20,309 nt of DNA, from positions 1 through 20,309 of IMG/VR virus record IMGVR_UViG_3300022935_000145; one strand, written 5' to 3'. A program made the translations under genes and the position numbers. Below, piece by piece: positions 2,829 to 20,054 of this stretch (position 1 is its first letter; each line of letters starts with the position of its first letter). The notes beneath the pieces are model-generated. The model had not been told where the DNA came from. It was given only the letters and a program-made list of their open reading frames with translations, and did no database searches. The stretch comes from a virus.

Positions 2829-2836
2829 AATAAATA
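2829..2836 (+). promoter_or_regulatory. T4-type late promoter box AATAAATA before gp19
   Basis: AATAAATA differs from the T4 late consensus TATAAATA at one base. It lies between the gp18 stop and the gp19 ATG, ten bases before the start. An AGGAG Shine-Dalgarno sequence (2836-2840) overlaps its end, so gp19 may be translated both from read-through gp18 mRNA and from its own late transcript. Function is inferred from the motif and position. Confidence 0.6.
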
Positions 2837-2846
2837 GGAGAAACAG

Positions 2847-3467: not shown

Positions 3468-3495
3468 TCAGCATTAAGTTAGCAATTATACAAGG

Positions 3496-3521
3496 AAAGC
3501 GTCTTTATAGGCGCTTTTTTT
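3496..3521 (+). terminator. Rho-independent terminator after gp19
   Basis: AAAGCGTC (3496-3503) pairs with GGCGCTTT (3510-3517) as an 8-bp stem with one T:G wobble. The loop is TTTATA, and a run of seven T extends to 3521. It lies 28 bases after the gp19 stop and just before the next gene's promoter box. This is the only canonical intrinsic terminator seen in the window. Confidence 0.88.
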
Positions 3522-3526
3522 GTGGC

Positions 3527-3534
3527 CATAAATA
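3527..3534 (+). promoter_or_regulatory. Late promoter box CATAAATA, predicted leaderless start
   Basis: CATAAATA ends six bases before the A of the ATG at 3540. With T4 late geometry (box at -13 to -6), transcription would begin exactly on the start codon. It lies five bases after the T-run of the gp19 terminator and no Shine-Dalgarno precedes the ATG. Inference from motif and spacing. Confidence 0.6.
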
Positions 3535-3539
3535 TCCAT

Positions 3540-4949
3540 ATGCCAAGCATTAATAATTTTCTAAAAGGATTCCAGGAAGGCCTTCCTGGCATGAAAGACT
3601 ATCGACACGCATCCAGATTGTATATAGACGACAATCATAAATTGATGCCAAAACAGAAATTTCTGTTCCATGTGGTTTTTCAAACAGACGAAACCCTATT
3701 CTACAATGGATTCAATACTAATGAAAGATACGAACTAAACATGTTGGTAAAAGCATGTGACCTGCCAAAATACAACATGAGTGTGGAAGAAAAGACACAG
3801 TACAACAAGAAGATGTACGCGGCAACCAGAATAGCATATGAACCTGTCAACATAACATTCCACGATGATCATGCGGACACTGTAAATGCTTTCTGGAAAA
3901 AATATTACGAATACCACATCGCTGATTCGGTAGCATTAAATTCTGACCTTGCAATATCTAATACAAAAGACGATTACTATGATGGAATCGATAAAAAGAA
4001 CATCAGTAAATTTGGTATGGATACTCCCGCGATGCGAAAAAAACCTTACCTTAAAGGTATAGAAATCTTTGTATTACATAAACAGAGATTCACATCAATG
4101 ACCTTAGTCAACCCAGTGATAGGATCTTTCAGTCACGACAACCTAGACCAAGCCGACGGCGGAGGTGTGCTACAAAACACAATGCAGATACTTTATGAGA
4201 CAGTGATATACAAATCAGGTCTAATAAACAGATCACTAGGCCAACCTAATCCAAACAGTGTACCCGGCTTTGCCACCATCCACTACGATAAAGAACCATC
4301 ACCATTGACGGTGCTCGGAGGTGGAACAAATAGCATCTTCGGACCAGGCGGTGTTGTGGATGGCATAGGATCAGTGATAAGAAATGTGAACCAGGGCAAC
4401 ATCCTGGGAGCAATACTGTCAGCATCAAACACTTACAACAACGCAAAAAAAATTAAAAAACAAGATGCCAAAGAAGAACTAAAAGGCATCGCTAAAAGAG
4501 GAGTCCTAGAAGTAGGAAAACAAGCAGGCACGATAGATAATCCTGTCGGATCGTTTTCAGTGGGAGCGGCTGTGGCCGCCGGGACCATAATTGCGGGTGC
4601 AAAGGCAACCAATGACAGGCTGAATAAACAAGACACACGTGTGATTCAGTCGCCGTCTTTAGATACCGTAAATTACCTCACAGCCGAAGAGGCATTCAAT
4701 TTGATATCTAACGACAGTACAATCAAAGATGAAATTGCCGCAGGAATTTATTACAAAGACATCGGATCAAGAAATAATCTCACAGTAGCGGAATCTGATG
4801 TGCAGTTTGCGAACTCTAATAATACGATTAAGACAGTATATAGGAATAAAGCAATCACTGACATCAGGAAATTAATAACAGAAGGATACTTGAAAATAAA
4901 CAGATCTACGCAAGAAGTATCGGTAGCAACTGAGAAGGCAGGACTATAA
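3540..4949 (+). CDS. Tail-tube-fold structural protein (gp19/gp54-like N-terminus)
   Basis: 469 residues. The first ~200 residues look like a tail-tube-type domain: FLFHVVFQTDETLF, then VKACDLPKYNMSVEEKTQYN, then YEPVNITFHDD followed by an aromatic-rich FWKKYYEYH helix. This recalls gp19 and the T4 baseplate tube proteins gp54/gp48. A Gly-rich stretch (about 258-300), a small hydrophobic Ala/Gly segment (about 340-360) and a polar C-terminal domain follow. T4 has the portal gene gp20 at this position, so the order is rearranged. I chose the ATG at 3540 over an in-frame GTG at 3522, because the GTG touches the terminator and lies inside the promoter region. The stop overlaps the next ATG by one base (TAATG). 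Most likely a tube or tube-initiator structural protein; the exact T4 counterpart is uncertain. Confidence 0.7.
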   Translation: MPSINNFLKGFQEGLPGMKDYRHASRLYIDDNHKLMPKQKFLFHVVFQTDETLFYNGFNTNERYELNMLVKACDLPKYNMSVEEKTQYNKKMYAATRIAYEPVNITFHDDHADTVNAFWKKYYEYHIADSVALNSDLAISNTKDDYYDGIDKKNISKFGMDTPAMRKKPYLKGIEIFVLHKQRFTSMTLVNPVIGSFSHDNLDQADGGGVLQNTMQILYETVIYKSGLINRSLGQPNPNSVPGFATIHYDKEPSPLTVLGGGTNSIFGPGGVVDGIGSVIRNVNQGNILGAILSASNTYNNAKKIKKQDAKEELKGIAKRGVLEVGKQAGTIDNPVGSFSVGAAVAAGTIIAGAKATNDRLNKQDTRVIQSPSLDTVNYLTAEEAFNLISNDSTIKDEIAAGIYYKDIGSRNNLTVAESDVQFANSNNTIKTVYRNKAITDIRKLITEGYLKINRSTQEVSVATEKAGL

Positions 4950-5326
4950 TGGCTGAATTATACACTAACTTACCACCAAGAGATAAAGATGATCTCGAAA
5001 AAACTATAGAAAAACTCACCACGTCAAACTATGAGACTGATTATCAATTTAATGTGGGAGAGTATGACAGCACTGTAGCGTTCTTTGTGAAACGTGGATT
5101 TTCAAGGACCTCTGCTGAATCAACAGCATATGTGATTCTTGCCCAGGCCAAAATAGACAATGTAAATCCACAAGAAGTGTTAGACAAACTGACTTATGCT
5201 TCACCGGCACAATTATCCGAGGTCATCACAATTATACTAAATGCTAATCGATACAAGTCAAGTAGACTCGGTGTCAGGCAAACACTAACAACGAAAGAGA
5301 CCGTATCTAGAAACATCATAGATTAA
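4949..5326 (+). CDS. Conserved marine T4-like virion protein, 125 aa
   Basis: A 125-residue soluble protein with no signal peptide or membrane segment. From memory it resembles a short protein often listed as a virion structural protein in T4-like cyanophages, with an N-terminal LPPRDKDD-type segment, a central FNVGEYDSTVAFFVKRGFS, a helical SAESTAYVILAQAKIDNV and an ILNANRYKSSRLG motif near the end. It overlaps the upstream tube-like gene by one base (TAATG), suggesting translational coupling and a shared role in the tail. The molecular function is unknown to me. Confidence 0.65.
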   Translation: MAELYTNLPPRDKDDLEKTIEKLTTSNYETDYQFNVGEYDSTVAFFVKRGFSRTSAESTAYVILAQAKIDNVNPQEVLDKLTYASPAQLSEVITIILNANRYKSSRLGVRQTLTTKETVSRNIID

Positions 5327-5340
5327 TATCCAAAGAACCT

Positions 5341-5838
5341 ATGTATATCAGTCTAAATTTGCCAACTATTGAAACAAAAAAAATCAAATGGAACACTAAT
5401 AAAATAATTGATAAATCAAGCAAGTCAACAATTAATGTCAATGGAAAATTAGGTTACTGGGCATACTCTGTAGATGATGTTACCTATAAAACACTGCAGG
5501 AATTTTTCCCAACAGAAATTATGGTAAATTCGCGCGTGTTGGTGCAGTTCCTTAGATCGACTACGAATGATAATCCGCACAGAGACAGTTATCCATGGAC
5601 TTTTATGTACATGTTGGATGATGCCAGTGGATACACAACTTTGTATGATGAAAACAAAAAAATTGTATCATCGCATGTTACACATAATAGAAACTGGGCC
5701 TTATTTAAATCTTGGTGTTGGCATTCGCCTGCAGGCATAAAGGAAAATAAAATCAGGAAAGCACTTGTGATACGTTTGAAGAAGGATTTCGATCTAAGAT
5801 TTTTACTGGAGAGCACAAATGTTACCGAGATTCGCTAA
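5341..5838 (+). CDS. 2OG-Fe(II) oxygenase-like protein
   Basis: 165 residues with the pattern of a 2-oxoglutarate/Fe(II) dioxygenase double-stranded beta-helix. An H80-R-D82 dyad follows a QFLRSTTNDN segment, the distal iron ligand is probably H128 in WCWHSPAG, and R139 or R145 (RKALVIRL) would bind the 2-oxoglutarate carboxylate. Such enzymes hydroxylate proteins, sugars or nucleobases; the substrate here cannot be read. The gene is visibly more AT-rich than its neighbours, with A-runs, and separates a tail gene from the gp4 head gene, so it looks like cargo. Its last 20 bases overlap the gp4 start. No Shine-Dalgarno or late box precedes it, so expression probably comes from read-through. 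Confidence 0.65.
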   Translation: MYISLNLPTIETKKIKWNTNKIIDKSSKSTINVNGKLGYWAYSVDDVTYKTLQEFFPTEIMVNSRVLVQFLRSTTNDNPHRDSYPWTFMYMLDDASGYTTLYDENKKIVSSHVTHNRNWALFKSWCWHSPAGIKENKIRKALVIRLKKDFDLRFLLESTNVTEIR

Positions 5839-6259
5839 GGGGAAGTTCTCGCCCAAGAACGGAAACAAGTATGTTGGTACCAAAACCCCCACTTACAGAA
5901 GCAGTTGGGAACATGCCTTCATGCGATTGTGCGACGAACACCCAAACGTGTACCAATGGGCAAGTGAATCAATAAAGATCCCATACAGACACCCATTCAC
6001 CGGGAAGTACACAGTCTACGTGCCTGATTTCTTTATCGTGTACCAAGACAAGGAAGGTCGGAAACATGCTGAAATGATAGAAGTCAAACCCATGAGTCAG
6101 ACCACAATGGAGGCCGCGGGAAGAAGTCAGGCAAAGAAAAAACAAGTCATAATCAACATGGCCAAATGGGAGGCGGCTAATGCATATGCCAAACAAAGAC
6201 GCATCAAATTCCGTGTGGTTTCAGAAGAACAGTTGTTTCATAATAGCAAACGTAAGTAA
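5819..6259 (+). CDS. gp4: Head completion protein gp4 (TnsA-like nuclease fold)
   Basis: 146 residues, close to T4 gp4 (150). In T4 this protein acts after DNA packaging to finish the head before tail joining. The sequence shows a YRSSWEHAFM helix with E31, the strand YVPDFFIVY with D70, and E88-V-K90 in MIEVKP. Together these give the E...PD...ExK signature of a TnsA-N/restriction-type nuclease. A C-terminal MAKWEAANAYAKQRRIKFRV helix-strand unit also matches T4 gp4. The basic N-terminus (KGKFSPKNGNKY) corresponds to the T4 GKFNPKHPEKY segment. The start lies inside the end of the preceding oxygenase gene. Whether it cuts DNA is unproven, but the active-site residues are intact. Confidence 0.88.
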   Translation: MLPRFAKGKFSPKNGNKYVGTKTPTYRSSWEHAFMRLCDEHPNVYQWASESIKIPYRHPFTGKYTVYVPDFFIVYQDKEGRKHAEMIEVKPMSQTTMEAAGRSQAKKKQVIINMAKWEAANAYAKQRRIKFRVVSEEQLFHNSKRK

Positions 6260-6264
6260 TTTTG

Positions 6265-7296
6265 ATGTATTCATTAGAAACTATAGAGCTGATCGATTTC
6301 GAATTAAGCAGTCATTGTAACTCCAAATGTCCTCAGTGCCCACGCTATGACATGCAAGGTAATGTACACAAGGATTTAAATGTAACACACCTGCCTTTTG
6401 ACACGATAAAGAGGTTACCACTAAATCATATGAAAGGTCTAAAGAGAATTTCGTTTAGAGGCAATTTTGGCGATCCGTTGATGCATCCGGAACTGGATAA
6501 TATTGTAGATTTTTTTTCAAATCAAAAAATTCACATCAGCACAAATGCATCTCTAAGGAATAAAGATTGGTGGGGACGACTGGGCACCAGGAAAAACGTT
6601 GAAGTGGTATTTTGCATAGATGGGTTAGATGATACCCATCATCTTTATCGTAGAAACACGTCATACAAAAAAATCATGGAGAATGCGGAATCTTTTATAG
6701 GCAACGGAGGGAAGGCTCTATGGCAATACATTGTTTTCAAACATAACGAACATCAAATCAGAAAAGCAAAATCTCTATCAGAATCATTGGGCTTTCAGTC
6801 TATCAAATTCATGTATTCGGAAAGATTTGATGTTGATTCTAAATTTAAAGTTTTTGAAAACAATGAACATCTATATGATTTGGAAAAAAGCACCAAGCAA
6901 AAATTATTGCGTGAAAAACTAGATTCCAACCACGGAGAAAAGTATTGGAAAAAATTATTCCTAAAGAGAGATCCGGGAAAAGTTGAATGCATATGGAGTC
7001 ACCGTAAAGAAATATACATCCACAGCGATGGAAATGTTTACCCTTGCTGTATGATTGGTTCTGTACAGGCAGGTAAAAATATAGAAAAACTAATGTTTGG
7101 AAAAATTGTCAAGGACAATGCCAATATTAATCTGCACAAAAATAGTTTTGAACAAATTATAAGTTCTGACGTTTTCCAAAAACTGATACCGGATAGCCTT
7201 AACGGACACCCTTTCACCCACCCTGTTTGTATAGAATGGTGCAACAAAAGGACGGGAAAATTTGCAAACAGTTTTTTAAATACTGTAAATACATGA
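6265..7296 (+). CDS. Radical SAM protein with SPASM-like C-terminus
   Basis: 343 residues. C18-x3-C22-x2-C25 (CNSKCPQC) is the radical SAM [4Fe-4S] motif, set right after the first strand (IELIDFELSSHC). RGNFGDPLMHPEL fits the GxGxP-type SAM-binding loop, and ISTNASL and FCIDGLDDTHHLYRR match later core motifs. The C-terminus carries CIWSHRKEIYIHSDGNVYPCC and a final HPVCIEWCNK, a SPASM-like pattern of Cys for an auxiliary cluster. SPASM enzymes act mostly on peptides, sometimes on sugars; no precursor peptide gene is evident nearby. I chose the ATG at 6265 over the in-frame TTG at 6262. The gene is AT-rich with long T-runs and lies between gp4 and gp16, which suggests acquired cargo. Its substrate is unknown. 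Confidence 0.85.
   Translation: MYSLETIELIDFELSSHCNSKCPQCPRYDMQGNVHKDLNVTHLPFDTIKRLPLNHMKGLKRISFRGNFGDPLMHPELDNIVDFFSNQKIHISTNASLRNKDWWGRLGTRKNVEVVFCIDGLDDTHHLYRRNTSYKKIMENAESFIGNGGKALWQYIVFKHNEHQIRKAKSLSESLGFQSIKFMYSERFDVDSKFKVFENNEHLYDLEKSTKQKLLREKLDSNHGEKYWKKLFLKRDPGKVECIWSHRKEIYIHSDGNVYPCCMIGSVQAGKNIEKLMFGKIVKDNANINLHKNSFEQIISSDVFQKLIPDSLNGHPFTHPVCIEWCNKRTGKFANSFLNTVNT
7284..7291 (+). promoter_or_regulatory. Late-type box TGTAAATA before gp16
   Basis: TGTAAATA ends seven bases before the gp16 ATG, which places a T4-style late start one base upstream of it. A second copy of the core, TTTAAATA (7275-7282), lies just upstream. Both sit inside the end of the radical SAM gene. No Shine-Dalgarno is visible. 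The first two bases deviate from TATAAATA. Confidence 0.45.
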
Positions 7297-7297
7297 T

Positions 7298-7822
7298 ATG
7301 ACAAAAAAATTAGAGGACATTCTTAATTTACCAAACGTAAAAGAGGCATTCAAAGAGGTAGACAAGAAAGAAAAAGATAGAAAAATCAAAGAAACCAACG
7401 TAAATCCTTCAACAAAGAATCTTGATCCACAAACACAGAAAAACTTGCAAAAAAGTTATGCGGAATTTGACAAGGTTGCGGCGGCGTTGCCCCAGGTAAA
7501 AGGCTTGGGTGAACTGTCAGATCTAGAATTAGACAAACTGGCAATTGAAGCCGAAGAGAGTTACAAGAATCTAATGGATCTAGGCATGAACGTGGACTCC
7601 AGATACTCAGGCAGGATCTTTGAAGTGGCTGGAAACTTCCTTAGGAACGCCATAGATGCTAAAAGCGGCAAGATCGACAAGAAACTGAAAATGATCGAAT
7701 TACAACTCAAAAAGCAGAAGTTAGATCAGGGTAATAAAGATGGGCCCGCTATAGAAGAAAGCGACGGATTTGTGATATCTGATCGTAACGAATTGATGAA
7801 GAAACTACTCAAAAAAGACTAA
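7298..7822 (+). CDS. gp16: Small terminase subunit gp16
   Basis: 174 residues (T4 gp16: 164). The small terminase recognises phage DNA and stimulates the packaging ATPase gp17. The N-terminus (LEDILNLPNV) matches the start of T4-type gp16. The middle is an alpha-helical coiled-coil-like segment, and the C-terminal part FLRNAIDAKSGKIDKKLKMI followed by LQLKKQKLD, then DGFVISDRNELMKKLLKK, closely resembles gp16 of marine T4-like phages as I recall them. Highly charged, no Cys. A late-type box lies immediately upstream. Unlike T4, it is not next to gp17: two genes intervene. Confidence 0.8.
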   Translation: MTKKLEDILNLPNVKEAFKEVDKKEKDRKIKETNVNPSTKNLDPQTQKNLQKSYAEFDKVAAALPQVKGLGELSDLELDKLAIEAEESYKNLMDLGMNVDSRYSGRIFEVAGNFLRNAIDAKSGKIDKKLKMIELQLKKQKLDQGNKDGPAIEESDGFVISDRNELMKKLLKKD

Positions 7823-7825
7823 ATA
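7818..7825 (+). promoter_or_regulatory. Late-type box ACTAAATA
   Basis: ACTAAATA overlaps the gp16 stop codon and ends seven bases before the ATG at 7832. The predicted late transcript would start one base before the ATG. Same geometry as the boxes before gp16, gp17 and the 704-residue gene. Confidence 0.5.
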
Positions 7826-7831
7826 TTGCAT

Positions 7832-8443
7832 ATGAGCACGTTCAAAGACTACCTAACAGAATCAACCAAGTCATATGACTACAAAATAAAGATTGCTGGT
7901 GAACCTAAAGACATCGACAAAAATGCTTTAGAAACAGCACTACAAAAATTTGATCTTGCTAAAATGTCAGCAGGCAAAAGCACACCTATTATGACTTTGC
8001 CATTGGACTTTCCAAGATTAAGCAACGAATCTGTTACTATTTTTGATGTCACAACGAATTATCCAGAATCGCCTAGGGTCATGCAAGAATATCTTTCAGA
8101 CATTTTGAGGATTCCAGCAACACACATTGTTGTGAGGAAACCAGGAGAGCCAACAGAAGAATATCAGAACGACATGGAAGTTGCTAAAAAATCTGAATAT
8201 GCCAATAAACTTCACGACATCGAGTACAAAGATGCTCCTAAAGTAAACGCAGAAGACTACCACAGCACAAAAGCAAACATGGGTCTTCTTAAAGAATTAT
8301 TAAAAGACAGAGAAGCCAATGCACTCAATATGGAAGTGGGCAAAGACAACAAAACGCAAGAAGTACAGAGCAACGAAGAAACAGGCTCACCAAGTCCTTT
8401 ATCAAAATCAACTAACCCGCACCCAGACCCAAAAAGGAAATAA
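7832..8443 (+). CDS. Conserved marine T4-like protein with capsid-targeting-like N-terminus
   Basis: 203 residues of unknown function. It begins MSTFKDYLTES, very like the capsid targeting sequence of T4 internal head proteins (MKTYQEFIAEA), and contains the prohead protease pattern (I/L)-x-E as LTE followed by S. The body (KIKIAGEPKDIDKNALETAL, then LAKMSAGKSTPI, then LPLDFPRL) resembles a conserved unknown of T4-like cyanophages that I recall in this packaging region. The last ~40 residues are polar, Pro/Ser/Lys-rich and probably disordered. I chose the ATG at 7832 over the in-frame TTG at 7826, since the late box fits only the ATG. Possibly a head-internal or scaffold-associated protein; this is inference. 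Confidence 0.65.
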   Translation: MSTFKDYLTESTKSYDYKIKIAGEPKDIDKNALETALQKFDLAKMSAGKSTPIMTLPLDFPRLSNESVTIFDVTTNYPESPRVMQEYLSDILRIPATHIVVRKPGEPTEEYQNDMEVAKKSEYANKLHDIEYKDAPKVNAEDYHSTKANMGLLKELLKDREANALNMEVGKDNKTQEVQSNEETGSPSPLSKSTNPHPDPKRK

Positions 8444-8446
8444 GTT

Positions 8447-9229
8447 ATGGAAATGATAGATGTGTTAACAAAGTTAAAAGAAATCGCAGAGAAAAAACCC
8501 GAATTGGTGAAAGATGCAGTAGAGAATGTTGAAAGAACAAACCCAAAAGTAGATGAGGGTGCTGTTAAGAGACAGATGGAAGACGATGCTGAAAAAATGT
8601 CTAAAGAAGAATTCATTGAAAAATACGGAAGTGCAATGGCAGATTTTTGGCATGCCTATAATGGTTATGACGAAGCAACCGAGAGTAAAAAAGAAATTAC
8701 AAAAAAAGAAACTGTGAACGAAGCAATCAAGATATCAACAGACAGTCCCGAAGAAGCAGGCATGATGATGCAGATCTTGAAACTAGCAGGTGTGCAACCA
8801 GTAGATGCAAAAATGATCGGTGCAGATGAACCAGAAATGGACACAGACGATGCGGCAGGATCCATGGACATGGCTAGAATGAGAGACATTGTAACTAAAC
8901 CCGAAGATGAAAAACAGGAAGAAACATTCGCTAACGAACCTGAAGAAAAAGTTCAAGACATAGACAGTTTGGTAAACAAACACTCAGGCGGTCTTAACAG
9001 ACAAAAGAAAACTTATCCTAAAGTTGCTGATGGAGATAACCCAATGGCGGCAGAAGACAAGATCACTGAAGAAGAACTGGCGAACAGTCTTAGAACACAG
9101 TACGAAAGTTTTAAAACAGCATATCAGACAGAGGCCAAAAAAGCAAAACCGGACTTCTTAGATATGGACAAAGATGGCAACAAAGAAGAACCAATGAAGA
9201 AAGCCATCAAAGACAAAGAGAAAAAATAA
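8447..9229 (+). CDS. Acidic coiled/disordered phage protein with Ca-loop-like motif
   Basis: 260 residues, very rich in Glu, Lys and Asp, with no membrane segment. Visible blocks are a helical start (VLTKLKEIAE), KMSKEEFIEKYGSAMADFW (50-68), IKISTDSPEEAGMMMQILKL followed by AGVQP (95-118), and a tail DFLDMDKDGNKEEPMKKA in which D239, D241 and D243 form a DxDxDG calcium-loop-like pattern. I recall similar blocks in marine T4-like phage proteins encoded near the terminase. Composition and context suggest a scaffold/core-associated or head-internal protein, but no enzymatic function can be read. It starts three bases after the previous stop and has no clear Shine-Dalgarno, so it is likely co-expressed with the 203-residue gene. 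Confidence 0.6.
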   Translation: MEMIDVLTKLKEIAEKKPELVKDAVENVERTNPKVDEGAVKRQMEDDAEKMSKEEFIEKYGSAMADFWHAYNGYDEATESKKEITKKETVNEAIKISTDSPEEAGMMMQILKLAGVQPVDAKMIGADEPEMDTDDAAGSMDMARMRDIVTKPEDEKQEETFANEPEEKVQDIDSLVNKHSGGLNRQKKTYPKVADGDNPMAAEDKITEEELANSLRTQYESFKTAYQTEAKKAKPDFLDMDKDGNKEEPMKKAIKDKEKK

Positions 9230-9253
9230 GTCTTTTCCTAGCACCTATAAAGC

Positions 9254-9261
9254 CTTAAATA
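9254..9261 (+). promoter_or_regulatory. Late-type box CTTAAATA before gp17
   Basis: CTTAAATA ends eight bases before the gp17 ATG. A T4-style late start would fall two bases upstream of it. The 39-base gap holding this box contains no Shine-Dalgarno close to the start. Confidence 0.5.
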
Positions 9262-9268
9262 CTACACT

Positions 9269-10861
9269 ATGGCGTATGTATCATTAGATAGCGACCAAAT
9301 TAAAAAGGCCAATAAGAAACACAAATACACCAAAGAGCAAGTGCAAAAACTTGAGAAGTGTATGGACCCTAAGAGCGGCCCACTTTACTTTATGAAGGAA
9401 TTCATGAAGATACAACATCCAGTTAAGGGCTCAATGCGTTTTGAACCATTCCCGTACCAGGAAAGGCTGATCAATAGTTACAACGATCACAGATTTTCAA
9501 TAGCAATGCTACCCAGACAGACAGGCAAAACAACTTGTGCTTCGGGTTATCTGATATGGTATGCTATGTTCAGGCCGGATTCACAAATTCTGATTGCGGC
9601 ACACAAATACGCAGGAGCGTCAGACATCATGTCAAGGGTTCGTTACGCATATGAGATGTTGCCAAGTTGGATCAAGGCCGGTGTAACACAGTACAACAGA
9701 AACAGCATAGAATTTGACAATGGATCTAAGATAATGGCCACAACAACGACAGAAAACACAGGTAGGGGTATGTCACTTACACTAATATATTGTGATGAGT
9801 TTGCGTTCGTGCAACCACCAGAGAAGGCAAAGGAATTCTGGACTTCGCTGTCACCCACATTGAGCACAGGTGGTAAGTGCATGATAACATCTACACCAAA
9901 CAGTGACGAAGACCAGTTCGCAATGATCTGGAAAGAAGCCAACAAGCGATTTGACGAATACGGAAATGACAAGATAATAGGAACCAACGGTTTCTATGCT
10001 ATGAAGGCTCACTGGTCAGAACACCCAGACAGAAATGAAGCATGGGCGGATGCGGAGCGTGCCAGAATAGGGGAAGAAAGATTCAGAAGGGAACACGAGT
10101 GCGAGTTCTTGATCTTTGACGAAACGTTGATATCAAGTATTGTTTTGGCCGACATGGAAGGTGTTCCACCGGTAGAGACTACAGGACAGGTGCGTTGGTT
10201 TAAGCGTCCAACACCCGGACACACCTATATGGTTAGTTTGGATCCAAGCATGGGAACAGGAGGTGACTATGCCGCAATACAGATTTTTGAACTACCAACT
10301 TTTGAACAGGTGGGAGAATGGCATCATAACCAGACTCCAATGAATCAGCAGATACGTATCCTTCAAGGAATCAACAAACACATACATGACACCATAATGG
10401 AACAGGATGCAACAGCCTCTCCACAGATTTTCTACTCCATGGAAAACAACACAATAGGTGAGGCCGCACTTATGCGGGTGATGGACATAGGGGAGGAAAA
10501 TATCATGGGTATGTTCCTATCTGAGCCTATCAGAAAAGGGCACAGACGTAAGTTCAGACGAGGGTTCAACACCACGGCGAAACACAAGATCGATGCCTGT
10601 ACAAAATTCAAAGAACTGGTCGAGAACGACAAGATGAAGATAAACTCACAATTATTGATATCAGAAATGAAGGACTTCGTTGCCACGGGTTTGAGTTACA
10701 AAGCAAAACCAGGACAACATGATGACCTTGTCAGTGCGTGTTTGTTAATGACACGTATGATGAAGGTGCTGGCAGACTTTGATCCTAAAATATTCGAAAA
10801 ATGGACAGATCGGACCAGCGAAATCACCCCAATGCCAATATTTGGATCATTCACAGGATAA
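9269..10861 (+). CDS. gp17: Large terminase gp17 (packaging ATPase/nuclease)
   Basis: 530 residues (T4: 610). This motor translocates DNA into the prohead and cuts the concatemer. The N-terminal ATPase shows Walker A PRQTGKTT (82-89), Walker B LIYCDE with D176/E177, and the coupling motif TSTP (207-210). The C-terminal RNase H-like nuclease shows D325 (SLDPSMGTGGDYAAI), E392 (YSMENN) and D485/D486 (GQHDDL), the three acidic positions of the T4 enzyme. All key residues are intact. The shorter length is mostly a reduced N-terminus. It is preceded by a late-type box and followed after only 12 bases by the 704-residue gene with another such box. Confidence 0.95.
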   Translation: MAYVSLDSDQIKKANKKHKYTKEQVQKLEKCMDPKSGPLYFMKEFMKIQHPVKGSMRFEPFPYQERLINSYNDHRFSIAMLPRQTGKTTCASGYLIWYAMFRPDSQILIAAHKYAGASDIMSRVRYAYEMLPSWIKAGVTQYNRNSIEFDNGSKIMATTTTENTGRGMSLTLIYCDEFAFVQPPEKAKEFWTSLSPTLSTGGKCMITSTPNSDEDQFAMIWKEANKRFDEYGNDKIIGTNGFYAMKAHWSEHPDRNEAWADAERARIGEERFRREHECEFLIFDETLISSIVLADMEGVPPVETTGQVRWFKRPTPGHTYMVSLDPSMGTGGDYAAIQIFELPTFEQVGEWHHNQTPMNQQIRILQGINKHIHDTIMEQDATASPQIFYSMENNTIGEAALMRVMDIGEENIMGMFLSEPIRKGHRRKFRRGFNTTAKHKIDACTKFKELVENDKMKINSQLLISEMKDFVATGLSYKAKPGQHDDLVSACLLMTRMMKVLADFDPKIFEKWTDRTSEITPMPIFGSFTG

Positions 10862-10867
10862 TAAATA
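10860..10867 (+). promoter_or_regulatory. Late promoter box AATAAATA
   Basis: AATAAATA overlaps the gp17 stop and ends seven bases before the ATG at 10874, predicting a late transcript that begins one base before the start codon. One mismatch to TATAAATA. No Shine-Dalgarno in the gap. Confidence 0.6.
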
Positions 10868-10873
10868 CACTAT

Positions 10874-12988
10874 ATGAACCCTAAAAATTCGCAAGATTTA
10901 TTCAATAAGATAAGATCACAGTTCGCCAACATACGTTTAGGCGACGAAAATGGTGCCGCCACAGCAGATCCAAGCAATGCGGTATTTTTTGAATTTGAAT
11001 TCCAGGAAGACGCCGACACTTTTGGTTCTGTGAGTATCAGTCTAGCAGATGGTGAGAACATGAAAGTGTACTACAACAGGGATCTTGTGAATAAAATCGA
11101 CGAAGACAGCAGGGACGAATGGTACGCTTTCCTCAAAGAGCTCAAAGACTTTGCAGTTGAGCATAGTCTGAGATTCGATGTGAGAGATATCACTAAAAAC
11201 AACCTAACGAAGCAGGATTACGAAAATCTTGCAGATACGAACAAAACGGTAAATACTGATGAAATGTCAGAAGAACTAGCAAGAATCACAAAATTAGCAG
11301 GCGTGAACGAAGGCCTAACAGGCACATCAAAACGTTCATATGAGAATCTAGACAAAACAAAATTAATAATCAGACACAAAGGCAAGGTTGACGAGACTGT
11401 GCCGGGTGCGAGATCAAGACAGATACAATCATTGTACATAGAAAATGAAGACGGTGAAAGATTCAAGTATCCAATGACACACCTAGCAGGTGCGAGAGCA
11501 ATGATGAGACACGTTGCTAACGGCGGTAGACCACATGATGAATTTGGTCAACACATAATCCAAACGTCAGAAGATATCGCAAAATTAAATTCTTTCCAAA
11601 GATATGTCTCTAACAAAGATCAATTGAACGACAACGCAGGCGACATAATTGAAAACACAAAATTACAATTAGAAAACCTAAGAGAGTACATGAGAAATCT
11701 TAGCAAACAATCTCATTATGAATCAAGTTGCAAGAGTTACAAGAAAGCAGAAGATCAAATCTTAGATGATGAGACTGTTAACAAATTAAGAGAGAAGTTC
11801 ACTATGACAAACCTCGATAGCCGCGTGGAAGACGCTATTCCTCTGATTAGTAGGGTCATGAGTGAATTGGAGAAAAACAAAACACAACCAGTAAATGAAT
11901 TAGACCCAGGCGATGAACCAATTGACGCACCTATACAACCACCCGTGGACCATGGTGCGGTTGTACTGAGTTTCTTAACAGATCCAGATAAAAAGTTAGT
12001 GCTAAGAAAAGATGACACAGCAGACAAGATGTTGAAAACAACAAAATTCACAAACAAAAACACAATGTTAAGTTCTATATTATCAGACATCGCATCAAGA
12101 CTTTTGACAAAGTCGGGCGAGGAAGACAGAGTGGCGAACTTCGCTTCAAGAGTGGCAGACGAGATGGAACAAGAAAATTCAGCAACGTTCAAACCAACTC
12201 CAGACTACATCAAGAACAAAAAGATTGCTGTGCAGTTAGCGAAGAGATACATCGACGACTACAAGAAAATGCAATCAGATCCAGACTACGGCAAAGAGGT
12301 GAGAATGGATCCAGGAGCGTTCGCACCCAAGAAAGATCTAAAAGGTAAAGCCAAAGAAACAGAAGCATTTGAAAGTTGGGTTGACAACATAACTGAACAG
12401 AAACCTTATGTGTCAATGTACAGAGGTGATGACGGAAAAATGATCTATGACGTGCTAGACAAAGATGGCAAGTCAGCGTTTACCTCATCAGACGAAAAAA
12501 TTGCGACAGGTTACCTAAGTAAAAACTATGACGAATTGATGGGTAGAATGCCTGTGAGTAAGGCAGACAAGATGGTGAACTCTCCAGCGTATCAAAAAAT
12601 GAAGGCAGGTGATCCAAAATACTCAGACAAGACAGAAGGCATGGGCGACAAGATAGCAGACATGGCTCAGAGCATGACCCGAGACGAATTCATGAGCAAA
12701 GCAGACGAATTGGGATTGACTCCCGAAGAGGCCGCGGAGCACTACGAGAAGATGTCGGGCGGTGCACACGCAGGCAAATTCGAGGGTAACCAATTTGCAC
12801 AGGCAGTACAGAAAGCCAAGGCCGCAGGCATGAAAGCAGGCGACAAGTTTAAAGTGGGTGACCAGGAGTACACTCTGAAGGATGCCATAGAACTTGCTGG
12901 CCTACAGTTGGAAGACTTCTATTCAGAAGAAGAACAGGCATACGACTCACAGATCGGTCGTATAAAAAACCTCGCATTTTACCAATAA
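10874..12988 (+). CDS. 704-aa conserved marine T4-like protein, function unknown
   Basis: Large, charged, soluble protein with no recognised catalytic motif. Blocks such as KLIIRHKGKVDETVPGARSR, GERFKYPMTHLAGARAMMRH and NGGRPHDEFGQHI recall a conserved unknown in T4-like cyanophages near gp17. Residues 1-125 are an acidic alpha/beta region, then a linker holding M131 (MSEELARITKLAGVNEG), a helical middle to about 350, a Pro-rich linker, another helical part, and a C-terminal segment around 600-675 with SMTRDEFMSKADELG and a short FKVGDQEYTLKDA motif. The latter recalls small domains that I associate with marine phage structural proteins. The late box upstream and the position after gp17 favour a virion or assembly role. 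A TAAATA box precedes the in-frame ATG at 11264, so a shorter product is possible. Confidence 0.7.
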   Translation: MNPKNSQDLFNKIRSQFANIRLGDENGAATADPSNAVFFEFEFQEDADTFGSVSISLADGENMKVYYNRDLVNKIDEDSRDEWYAFLKELKDFAVEHSLRFDVRDITKNNLTKQDYENLADTNKTVNTDEMSEELARITKLAGVNEGLTGTSKRSYENLDKTKLIIRHKGKVDETVPGARSRQIQSLYIENEDGERFKYPMTHLAGARAMMRHVANGGRPHDEFGQHIIQTSEDIAKLNSFQRYVSNKDQLNDNAGDIIENTKLQLENLREYMRNLSKQSHYESSCKSYKKAEDQILDDETVNKLREKFTMTNLDSRVEDAIPLISRVMSELEKNKTQPVNELDPGDEPIDAPIQPPVDHGAVVLSFLTDPDKKLVLRKDDTADKMLKTTKFTNKNTMLSSILSDIASRLLTKSGEEDRVANFASRVADEMEQENSATFKPTPDYIKNKKIAVQLAKRYIDDYKKMQSDPDYGKEVRMDPGAFAPKKDLKGKAKETEAFESWVDNITEQKPYVSMYRGDDGKMIYDVLDKDGKSAFTSSDEKIATGYLSKNYDELMGRMPVSKADKMVNSPAYQKMKAGDPKYSDKTEGMGDKIADMAQSMTRDEFMSKADELGLTPEEAAEHYEKMSGGAHAGKFEGNQFAQAVQKAKAAGMKAGDKFKVGDQEYTLKDAIELAGLQLEDFYSEEEQAYDSQIGRIKNLAFYQ
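11248..11255 (+). promoter_or_regulatory. Possible internal late-type box inside the 704-aa gene
   Basis: GGTAAATA lies nine bases before the in-frame ATG at 11264 (residue 131). The predicted late start is three bases before that ATG. It has only the TAAATA core and lies inside a coding region, so it may be chance. Confidence 0.25.
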
Positions 12989-16177: not shown

Positions 16178-16631
16178 TTGGTACAACGAAGTAAGCAGGA
16201 ATTTAGATAAGATACCAGACTGTATCGCATACTTTGACAAGGAATTGTTAGAGGCCAAAAAGCAGTGCAAGATATACGGTAACCTCGAAAAAGCAAGTGC
16301 GGCATTGCCAGGAATAGTTGAAGAAAGATTTGGACAACTACAACAACTGGAAGCGATACTAGAATACCTAAACATTGAATTGCGTAGATTAAGATCAAAA
16401 ACATTCAGGAAATATTTAGAAAACTACAATCGAGCATTATCAAGCAGAGATGCAGAAAAGTATGTTGACGGAGAGGATGATGTTGTTGACATGGATAAAA
16501 TTATAAATGACTTTGCATTGATAAGGAACCAATGGTTAGGCATCACCAAAGGACTAGATCAGAAGCAATGGCAGATAACAAACATTGTGAAACTGAGAGT
16601 GGCGGGCATGGAAGATGCAGACATCAAATAG
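16170..16631 (+). CDS. uvsY: UvsY recombination mediator
   Basis: 153 residues (T4 UvsY: 137). UvsY helps UvsX replace gp32 on single-stranded DNA. The protein is almost entirely helical and charged, with LRRLRSKTFRKYLENYNRAL in the middle, a conserved acidic linker (KYVDGEDDVVDMDKI) and a C-terminal LDQKQWQITNIVKLRVAGMED helix. These parallel the T4 segments around LKARLDYYSG, VLSADKDVLKVDT and IKSRGFAIKHIQDMRAFEAG. Position after uvsX in a coupled cluster supports the call. It overlaps the next gene by 17 bases. Confidence 0.85.
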   Translation: MINWYNEVSRNLDKIPDCIAYFDKELLEAKKQCKIYGNLEKASAALPGIVEERFGQLQQLEAILEYLNIELRRLRSKTFRKYLENYNRALSSRDAEKYVDGEDDVVDMDKIINDFALIRNQWLGITKGLDQKQWQITNIVKLRVAGMEDADIK

Positions 16632-19039: not shown

Positions 19040-20040
19040 ATCAATTTATTTTTCCAGGTATCTGGTGTGATGTCATTTACAATTTCCAAAGGTAAGTGGT
19101 ACTGGAATTTTTTTATTCCTCGTGTCCTGATGTAATCAGCGGTCTTCTTAACAGACTGTCTCATGTTTGTTGCCGTTTTATATCCCAATAACTTTCTTGC
19201 CTTGTCAGATGAACAAACAGCGAGTTTCACTTCTTTTGGTCTGTCTTTATGATGGATAGGATCTAAGTTCAATCCTGTTTCGTTAGCACAGGCCTCGGCC
19301 AGTTCATTTATTGACACGGGCTCCTCGTCTGGCCCTATGTTGACCACCTCCCCAACAACGTTGTCTTGAAATGCTAGGGCATTGAGGCAGTAAAGGCAAT
19401 CATCTATATAACTGAAACACCTTTGCTGTTCACCATCTCCATAAATGATAGGTTGTTTACCTTGTAACATTCTGTTCAACATGATCGACATCACATTTCT
19501 GAAAGGGTCATCATATTTTTGTCTCGGACCAACTATATTATGAGGTACTGCAATCACGTACTCAACTCCATGTGTTTCACATAAATTTCGTAGTACATCC
19601 TCACCGGCTTTTTTTGCAATTCCATATGGGTCCTGTGGACGGCATTCATAACTTTCTTTGTATGGGAGTTCATCATGATGACCATATCTTGCCATGCTTG
19701 AACAATACACAATACGTTTTACTTTGTTCCTGATAGCGGCTGTGATCGTTGTCACCGATGCTTCAAAAATGTTCTTTGTAACTAAAACGGGCGAAAATAC
19801 AGAAAGACCCTCATAGGCAGTAGCGGCCGTATGATACACGATATCGCAATCTTCCATTGCTTTGGTCATGTTTTCTAAATCGCAACAGTCTACTTGATGA
19901 AATTCAACATCTTGTGGGACATTGTCTGTGTAACCGCCTATCATGTTGTCATTTCCGGCAACTTTATGACCTTGTGAGATCATCAAATCTGCTAAATGTG
20001 ATCCTAAAAAACCAGCGACACCTGTTATAAAAATTTTCAT
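19036..20040 (-). CDS. NAD-dependent sugar epimerase/dehydratase
   Basis: 334 residues, the usual length for extended short-chain dehydrogenases acting on nucleotide sugars. The Rossmann motif is G7-V-A-G10-F-L-G13, the catalytic pair is Y139-G-I-A-K143, and the catalytic Ser is in YCSSMARYG (S114/S115). PHNIVGPRQKYDDP and RCFSYIDDCLYCL match conserved UDP-glucose 4-epimerase-type positions. Close to GalE/WbpP-like enzymes, but 4,6-dehydratase or reductase activity cannot be excluded by eye. It would supply an activated sugar for the coupled glycosyltransferase. A late-type box lies immediately upstream on the minus strand. Confidence 0.88.
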   Translation of the reverse strand: MKIFITGVAGFLGSHLADLMISQGHKVAGNDNMIGGYTDNVPQDVEFHQVDCCDLENMTKAMEDCDIVYHTAATAYEGLSVFSPVLVTKNIFEASVTTITAAIRNKVKRIVYCSSMARYGHHDELPYKESYECRPQDPYGIAKKAGEDVLRNLCETHGVEYVIAVPHNIVGPRQKYDDPFRNVMSIMLNRMLQGKQPIIYGDGEQQRCFSYIDDCLYCLNALAFQDNVVGEVVNIGPDEEPVSINELAEACANETGLNLDPIHHKDRPKEVKLAVCSSDKARKLLGYKTATNMRQSVKKTADYIRTRGIKKFQYHLPLEIVNDITPDTWKNKLI

Positions 20041-20046
20041 TTTTGA

Positions 20047-20054
20047 TATTTAAT
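20047..20054 (-). promoter_or_regulatory. Late-type box ATTAAATA on minus strand before the epimerase
   Basis: Reading the minus strand, ATTAAATA ends seven bases before the epimerase ATG, so a T4-style late transcript would start one base upstream of it. This is the same spacing as before gp16 and the 704-residue gene, on the opposite strand, which argues the motif is a real phage signal. Confidence 0.5.

Follow-up and report, generated by a model that had tools for sequence, protein, structure and literature searches.

The DNA analysed here (IMG/VR virus record IMGVR_UViG_3300022935_000145, positions 1 to 20,309), referred to below as the window, is a 20.3-kb fragment of a T4-superfamily virus in which several late genes carry a TAAATA sequence, the core of the T4 late promoter, a few nucleotides (nt) before their ATG. 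Such gp55-type late promoters, placed next to the start codon, very probably produce leaderless mRNAs for many, although not all, of the late genes; the activity of the boxes as late promoters, the exact 5' ends and leaderless translation are all predicted from sequence. The window contains, in this order, the genes for the gp18 sheath and the gp19 tube, a second tube-like gene, a gp4-like head closure gene, gp16, two virion genes around gp17, and gp32, uvsX and uvsY. The genes adjacent to a box are mostly packaging or structural genes according to their PHROG matches, and five of them, together with their boxes, are central to what follows. The gap given for each is the number of nucleotides separating TAAATA from the ATG.

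3527..3534, plus strand: late-promoter box CATAAATA of the tube-like gene, gap 5 to the ATG at 3540, predicted leader 0 nt
3540..4949, plus strand: tail-tube-like gene, 469 amino acids counted from ATG 3540 (phrog_4542 tail tube, E 1e-9)
7284..7291, plus strand: late-promoter box TGTAAATA of gp16, gap 6 to the ATG at 7298, within the 3' end of an inserted radical-SAM gene
7298..7822, plus strand: gp16, small terminase subunit (phrog_16202, E 2e-13; phrog_445 terminase small subunit, E 6e-4)
7818..7825, plus strand: late-promoter box ACTAAATA of the 203-amino-acid gene, gap 6 to the ATG at 7832, overlapping the gp16 stop codon
7832..8443, plus strand: virion structural gene of 203 amino acids (phrog_14802, E 4e-11)
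9254..9261, plus strand: late-promoter box CTTAAATA of gp17, gap 7 to the ATG at 9269, predicted leader ACU (3 nt) or none
9269..10861, plus strand: gp17, large terminase subunit (phrog_36964, E 1e-107)
10860..10867, plus strand: late-promoter box AATAAATA of the 704-amino-acid gene, gap 6 to the ATG at 10874
10874..12988, plus strand: virion structural gene of 704 amino acids (phrog_13484, E 1e-21)

The original prediction, made from the letters of the window, had placed boxes at these five positions with no Shine-Dalgarno sequence between box and ATG, and inspection of the sequence bears out both statements. The TAAATA core of the T4-type TATAAATA box (-13 to -6) is present, while its first two bases are variable in the clade of the window. 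The original prediction had also called for TAAATA-to-ATG spacing to be counted against controls, and this count, which took TAAATA on both strands at a gap of 5-8 to the ATG of an open reading frame of at least 60 amino acids, lies far above chance. Such gaps are found for 8 of the 12 TAAATA in the window, compared with 1.8% of random positions (binomial p=5.7e-12), and for 23 of 59 (p=1.6e-25) and 23 of 50 (p=1.2e-27) in the two longest relatives of the window, G001 (138 kb) and G002 (91 kb). The start codons at these gaps are almost exclusively ATG (ATG/GTG/TTG: window 8/0/0, G001 23/0/0, G002 23/0/2, phage HTVC008M 15/0/1). The binomial test, permuted hexamers and this codon control exclude chance as the cause of the spacing. 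Wrongly assigned start codons were rejected as well: third-position variation sets in within codons 2-5, four of the five families have in-frame stops a short way upstream, and in the cultured phage HTVC008M each of the 17 ATGs next to a box, many of them of virion genes, is a coding-sequence start in GenBank. Two possible alternative starts exist in the window: an in-frame GTG lies 18 nt before the ATG of the tube-like gene, and a TTG precedes the ATG of the 203-amino-acid gene by 6 nt.

AT-rich, unstructured start regions help initiation, and a TAA stop lies within several of the boxes, so TAAATA near the ATG might be read as a translation-enhancing AU-rich element or as the relic of a stop codon instead of a promoter. 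This reading has hardly any probability left when set against the 14 remaining T2A4 hexamers, which together reach only 2.5-3.3% at gap 5-8, and against the sharp 5-8 window with its initiator-like bases; moreover, the 8-bp late TATA box of T4 stands at the same place relative to the start site (PMC2988020). As for the stop-codon relic in particular, it was rejected on TAATAA and other hexamers, which lack the spacing effect.

Among orthologues, the gap is nearly fixed in five families while the sequence of the spacer varies. It is 5 in all 46 orthologues of the tube-like gene (7 different spacers), 5 or 6 in 64 of the 67 of gp16 (27 different spacers), 6 in all 70 of the 203-amino-acid gene, 7 in 74 of the 75 of gp17, and 6 or 7 in all 68 of the 704-amino-acid gene. 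The window has a radical-SAM gene (6262-7296) inserted between the gp4-like gene and gp16, where most relatives have a gp4-type stop directly 5' of gp16, yet the new junction again has a box with a 6-nt gap. Genome compaction alone, by which short intergenic regions would push promoters near to starts, would fit the coding density of about 0.95 in G001, but it is a very unlikely explanation: T4, cyanophage and most pelagimyophage boxes are leadered though these genomes are compact too, and the boxes lie at the ATG-proximal end even of longer intergenic stretches (39 nt for gp17, 72 nt for the tube-like gene). Compaction would also have to account for gaps of 0-3 and 9-14 being nearly empty, which leaves a sharp 5-8 window and no smooth fall.

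This empty zone separates two classes of promoters, which were surveyed in about 80 IMG/VR loci per group, group A (clade A) being the clade of the window and group C the wider group related to Pseudomonas jumbo phage PA5oct. In groups A and C hardly any site has a gap of 9, and the sites of clade A at gaps 10 to 14 all have GGAG and are gp19-type sequences. Shine-Dalgarno-like motifs accompany 0-5% of the sites at gap 4-8, compared with 54-77% of those at gap 15-45; since a spacer of 5-8 nt is too short for a Shine-Dalgarno sequence, its absence is partly built in, and the empty zone is the stronger sign. A leader is retained by gp18 in the relatives, with a box about 39 nt from the start and AAGGAG. 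As to the genes that the original prediction had contrasted with the five, gp32 has GGAGG and gp19 has GGAG, as expected, but the site of uvsX (ctatAGGAcgataacaATG) is weaker, and gp19 has a TAAATA too.

The T4 late promoter has its 8-bp TATA box starting at -13 (PMC2988020), so that transcription would start at the sixth base after the box. Leadered promoters have a purine peak at exactly this base (T4 75%, cyanophages 84%, pelagimyophages 80%, clade A 83%, group C 67%), whereas at boxes not linked to a gene the sixth base is a purine in 40-57% and the peak is weak or absent, which supports the T4 start-site geometry. At a gap of 5 the sixth base coincides with the A of the ATG, and a pyrimidine precedes it (a purine in only 5-7% in groups B and C, and in 35% in group A); at a gap of 8 all 27 distinct spacers have a purine as the sixth base. 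At gaps of 6-7 the sixth base is mostly a pyrimidine and the fifth a purine in 67-90%, which suggests that transcription starts either at the fifth base or at the ATG. Taken together, the initiator bases predict leaders of 0-3 nt at all short gaps. The leaders of 0, 1, 1, 2 and 1 nt originally proposed for the five genes are thus probably off by 1-2 bases: the values suggested instead are 0 at a gap of 5, either 0 or 2 at a gap of 6, and 3 (or 0) at a gap of 7.

The region upstream of the tube-like gene contains a further element bearing on its transcript.

3488..3524, plus strand: intrinsic terminator 3' of gp19, ending just before the box of the tube-like gene (fold -19.5 kcal/mol, z -7.2)

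The terminator is kept in all 22 distinct upstream sequences of the relatives, with paired changes (GUC/GGC, GCC/GGC, GUC/GAC), and leaves about 16-19 nt for promoter and leader. With a conserved terminator ending directly before the box, the tube-like gene's own transcript would have little room for a leader. The terminator also bears on the idea that the boxes are promoters but add little, translation proceeding mainly from longer read-through mRNAs by termination and reinitiation. This is unlikely, although gp16 and the 203- and 704-amino-acid genes each have an upstream stop codon at a distance of 9-15 nt from their ATG, with TAA being part of the box in some. Besides the strong terminator preceding the tube-like gene, the in-frame stop of gp17 lies 21-42 nt upstream, with a 39-nt intergenic stretch in the window, and reinitiation leaves unexplained both the specificity for TAAATA and the pyrimidine-purine placement.

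The mechanism proposed for the short-gap genes is that gp55-type (T4-class) late promoters have been shifted to a place directly in front of the start codon. The late RNA polymerase would start five or six bases after TAAATA, that is, on the A of the ATG at gaps 4-5 or 2-3 nt before it at gaps 6-8, and the resulting mRNA would have a leader of 0-3 nt, no Shine-Dalgarno sequence and its AUG at or near the 5' end. The host ribosome would then initiate on the 5'-terminal AUG as it does on other leaderless mRNAs, while other late genes of the same genomes, such as gp18, would retain a box 15-45 nt away together with a Shine-Dalgarno sequence. The earlier suggestion that late transcripts are leaderless has strong in silico support from spacing, bimodality, initiator bases, AUG-only starts, lack of Shine-Dalgarno sequences, the conserved upstream terminator and the negative controls in T4 and cyanophages; it holds for a large class and not for all late genes, given the leadered gp18 of the relatives and the GGAG of gp19. 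The tuning of Shine-Dalgarno-independent translation to the late phase, also suggested there, is a speculative extension.

Several points weigh against leaderless late expression from these boxes. The stops upstream of gp16 and of the 203- and 704-amino-acid genes are close enough for coupled translation on a read-through mRNA, which may add to the expression of these three genes. The gp19 site matches neither class of promoter cleanly, as its GGAG would lie outside the transcript under the T4 geometry; its TAAATA, directly followed by GGAG (window 2831-2846), is separated from the ATG by a gap of 10 here and of 12-14 in some relatives. The sliding clamp gp45 of T4 was not found with PHROG and Pfam models, either in contigs of the clade or in the jumbo relatives searched; there was no positive control for the PHROG search, and jumbo relatives are missed by the Pfam model too. 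Finally, the 477 of 717 boxes at gap 5-8 (66.5%) in the 80 loci of the clade come from close relatives and are not independent counts, and the p-values from single genomes are therefore the fair ones. As regards gp55, it is absent from the window, which is a genome fragment, and is found in G001 (phrog_234, E 2e-24), HTVC008M, XacN1, Mosig and T4.

The layout extends beyond the clade of the window. In the group related to PA5oct, 16.5% of the boxes are at gap 5-8, 104 of them at exactly 5, and for gp17 a box lies 4-8 nt before the ATG in 40 of 80 cases, with a gap of exactly 5 and many different spacers in 33 of these 40. Pelagimyophages have a share of 3.7% (27 of 37 at exactly 5), HTVC008M has 15 of 186 boxes at gap 5-8 (12 at exactly 5) and XacN1 has 4 of 24, all at 5. 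The negative controls amount to 3 of 700 boxes (0.4%) in cyanophage loci, 0/36 in Syn9, 0/24 in Phosso, 0/46 in GAP32, 0/41 in Atu_ph07 and 1/72 in T4; the statement in the original prediction that T4 late mRNAs mostly have leaders is confirmed. In a gp17 tree the layout fills the branch of the window and recurs across neighbouring uncultured branches, at least 8 changes being required by the branches with good support. No relatives came up when gp17 was scanned with XacN1 as query.

In HTVC008M (KC465899, 18916-18943), divergent genes for a DNA-end protector and a head-completion protein are 26 nt apart, and in between lie late boxes in both orientations, both with a gap of exactly 5 to the ATG that they serve. 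Further gap-5 starts of HTVC008M include those at 19456, 31132 and 75830, and XacN1 has such ATGs at 126974, 128288 and 158321 (minus strand). Mosig (MT647606) has several gap-8 boxes besides gap-5 ones; one of them (89800, minus strand) is at the annotated start of a gp25-like gene, whereas longer annotated genes enclose those at 23681, 75341 and 78035, which may be due to chance. Ribosomal protein S21 is encoded by HTVC008M, Mosig, PA5oct, Phosso, Atu_ph07, Vibrio 2.275.O, which also has an IF-3-like gene, and three large IMG/VR contigs (G013, G014 and G018). It was not found in G001, G002 or XacN1, and with this pattern of presence and absence a simple association between S21 and the leaderless layout was rejected.

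The window has many relatives in IMG/VR, with gp17 identities of 91-100%. Among named phages, PA5oct has the closest gp17 (55%) and Sinorhizobium phage Phosso the closest UvsX (68%). An assignment of the host from genome bins was discarded, as two contigs of metagenome-assembled genomes disagree (Betaproteobacteria TMED41 and Pelagibacter). The other TAAATA sites of interest in the window are as follows.

2831..2836, plus strand: TAAATA before gp19, the exception, gap 10, then GGAG
7277..7282, plus strand: second TAAATA in tandem 5' of the gp16 box (TAAATA at 7277 and 7286), gap 15
11250..11255, plus strand: TAAATA, possible internal late promoter in the 704-amino-acid gene, gap 8 to an in-frame Met (574-amino-acid product)
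20047..20052, minus strand: TAAATA before a 334-amino-acid NAD-epimerase-like gene, gap 6 to the ATG at 20040

In the epimerase family the gap is 5 or 6 in all 6 sites that have a box. The internal site at 11250-11255 may drive a 574-amino-acid short form of the 704-amino-acid protein; its codons GTA AAT ACT are invariant in 65 of 65 orthologues, with the next two codons variable, and the preceding block of codons is equally invariant. Three sites at gaps of 6-8 are additional to those of the five genes: the internal site, the epimerase site and one at 16418 on the minus strand, which is probably spurious.

Whereas T4 and cyanophages give their late mRNAs a leader with a ribosome-binding site, in this large, mostly uncultured T4-like group many mRNAs of virion genes are predicted to begin at most 3 bases from the AUG. 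If true, this would be a rare viral late regulon based on leaderless mRNAs, and late promoters and true start codons could be located by a simple rule in pelagimyophages as well as in a large group of uncultured aquatic viruses. It would also allow leadered and leaderless late expression to be compared within one virus family, for which the cultured phages HTVC008M and XacN1 are available. A more far-reaching view, put forward tentatively and rather doubtful, is that a whole T4-like branch has shifted much of its late regulon to leaderless mRNA and makes its late virion proteins by Shine-Dalgarno-independent initiation at a 5' AUG, possibly favoured by the state of initiation factors or ribosomes late in infection. 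Late promoters of the T4 type are well known, and so are leaderless mRNAs; in the open-access literature, subscription papers being outside the search, we found nothing on the two combined in a T4-type late regulon, and the combination is apparently unreported there.

In comparison with the late promoters of T4, which depend on gp55, gp33 and gp45 (PMC2988020), the boxes share the TAAATA core at a distance of roughly one helical turn from the start site, a gp55 homologue in the 138-kb relative and the purine at the sixth base. They differ in that T(-13)A(-12) of the T4 octamer is not conserved in the clade of the window, and in that T4 boxes are mostly 15-40 nt before the ATG with a Shine-Dalgarno sequence, whereas the ATG of the clade is at about +1 to +4. 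mRNAs are called leaderless if the leader is at most 5 nt, and Alphaproteobacteria such as Zymomonas have many of them (PMC7566282). With leaderless mRNAs of the lambda cI type and those of Zymomonas, Caulobacter, mycobacteria and Lactococcus (PMC7566282, PMC10986495, PMC4633059), the predicted transcripts share a leader of 0-3 nt, the AUG, the lack of a Shine-Dalgarno sequence and bimodal leader lengths; here, however, the system is a phage late regulon on a T4-type promoter, with 5' ends predicted from sequence. The mapped leaders of Lactococcus cremoris are either shorter than 5 nt or about 40 nt, with none between 4 and 14 (PMC10986495), which is the same two-class pattern as that of the phage gaps. 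In the giant phage AR9, mapped late transcript starts have been discussed with regard to leaderless transcripts, but the leaders are 26-491 nt long, and phage RNA polymerases transcribe the genes from promoters of an unrelated kind (PMC5312081). The pelagimyophages, T4-like marine phages (PMC7029224), share the layout, with TAAATA at a gap of exactly 5 on many virion genes (12 sites in HTVC008M). According to a survey from 2020, neither middle nor late promoters could be predicted in their genomes (PMC7029224), and the ATG-proximal layout may be one reason why the prediction of late promoters failed.

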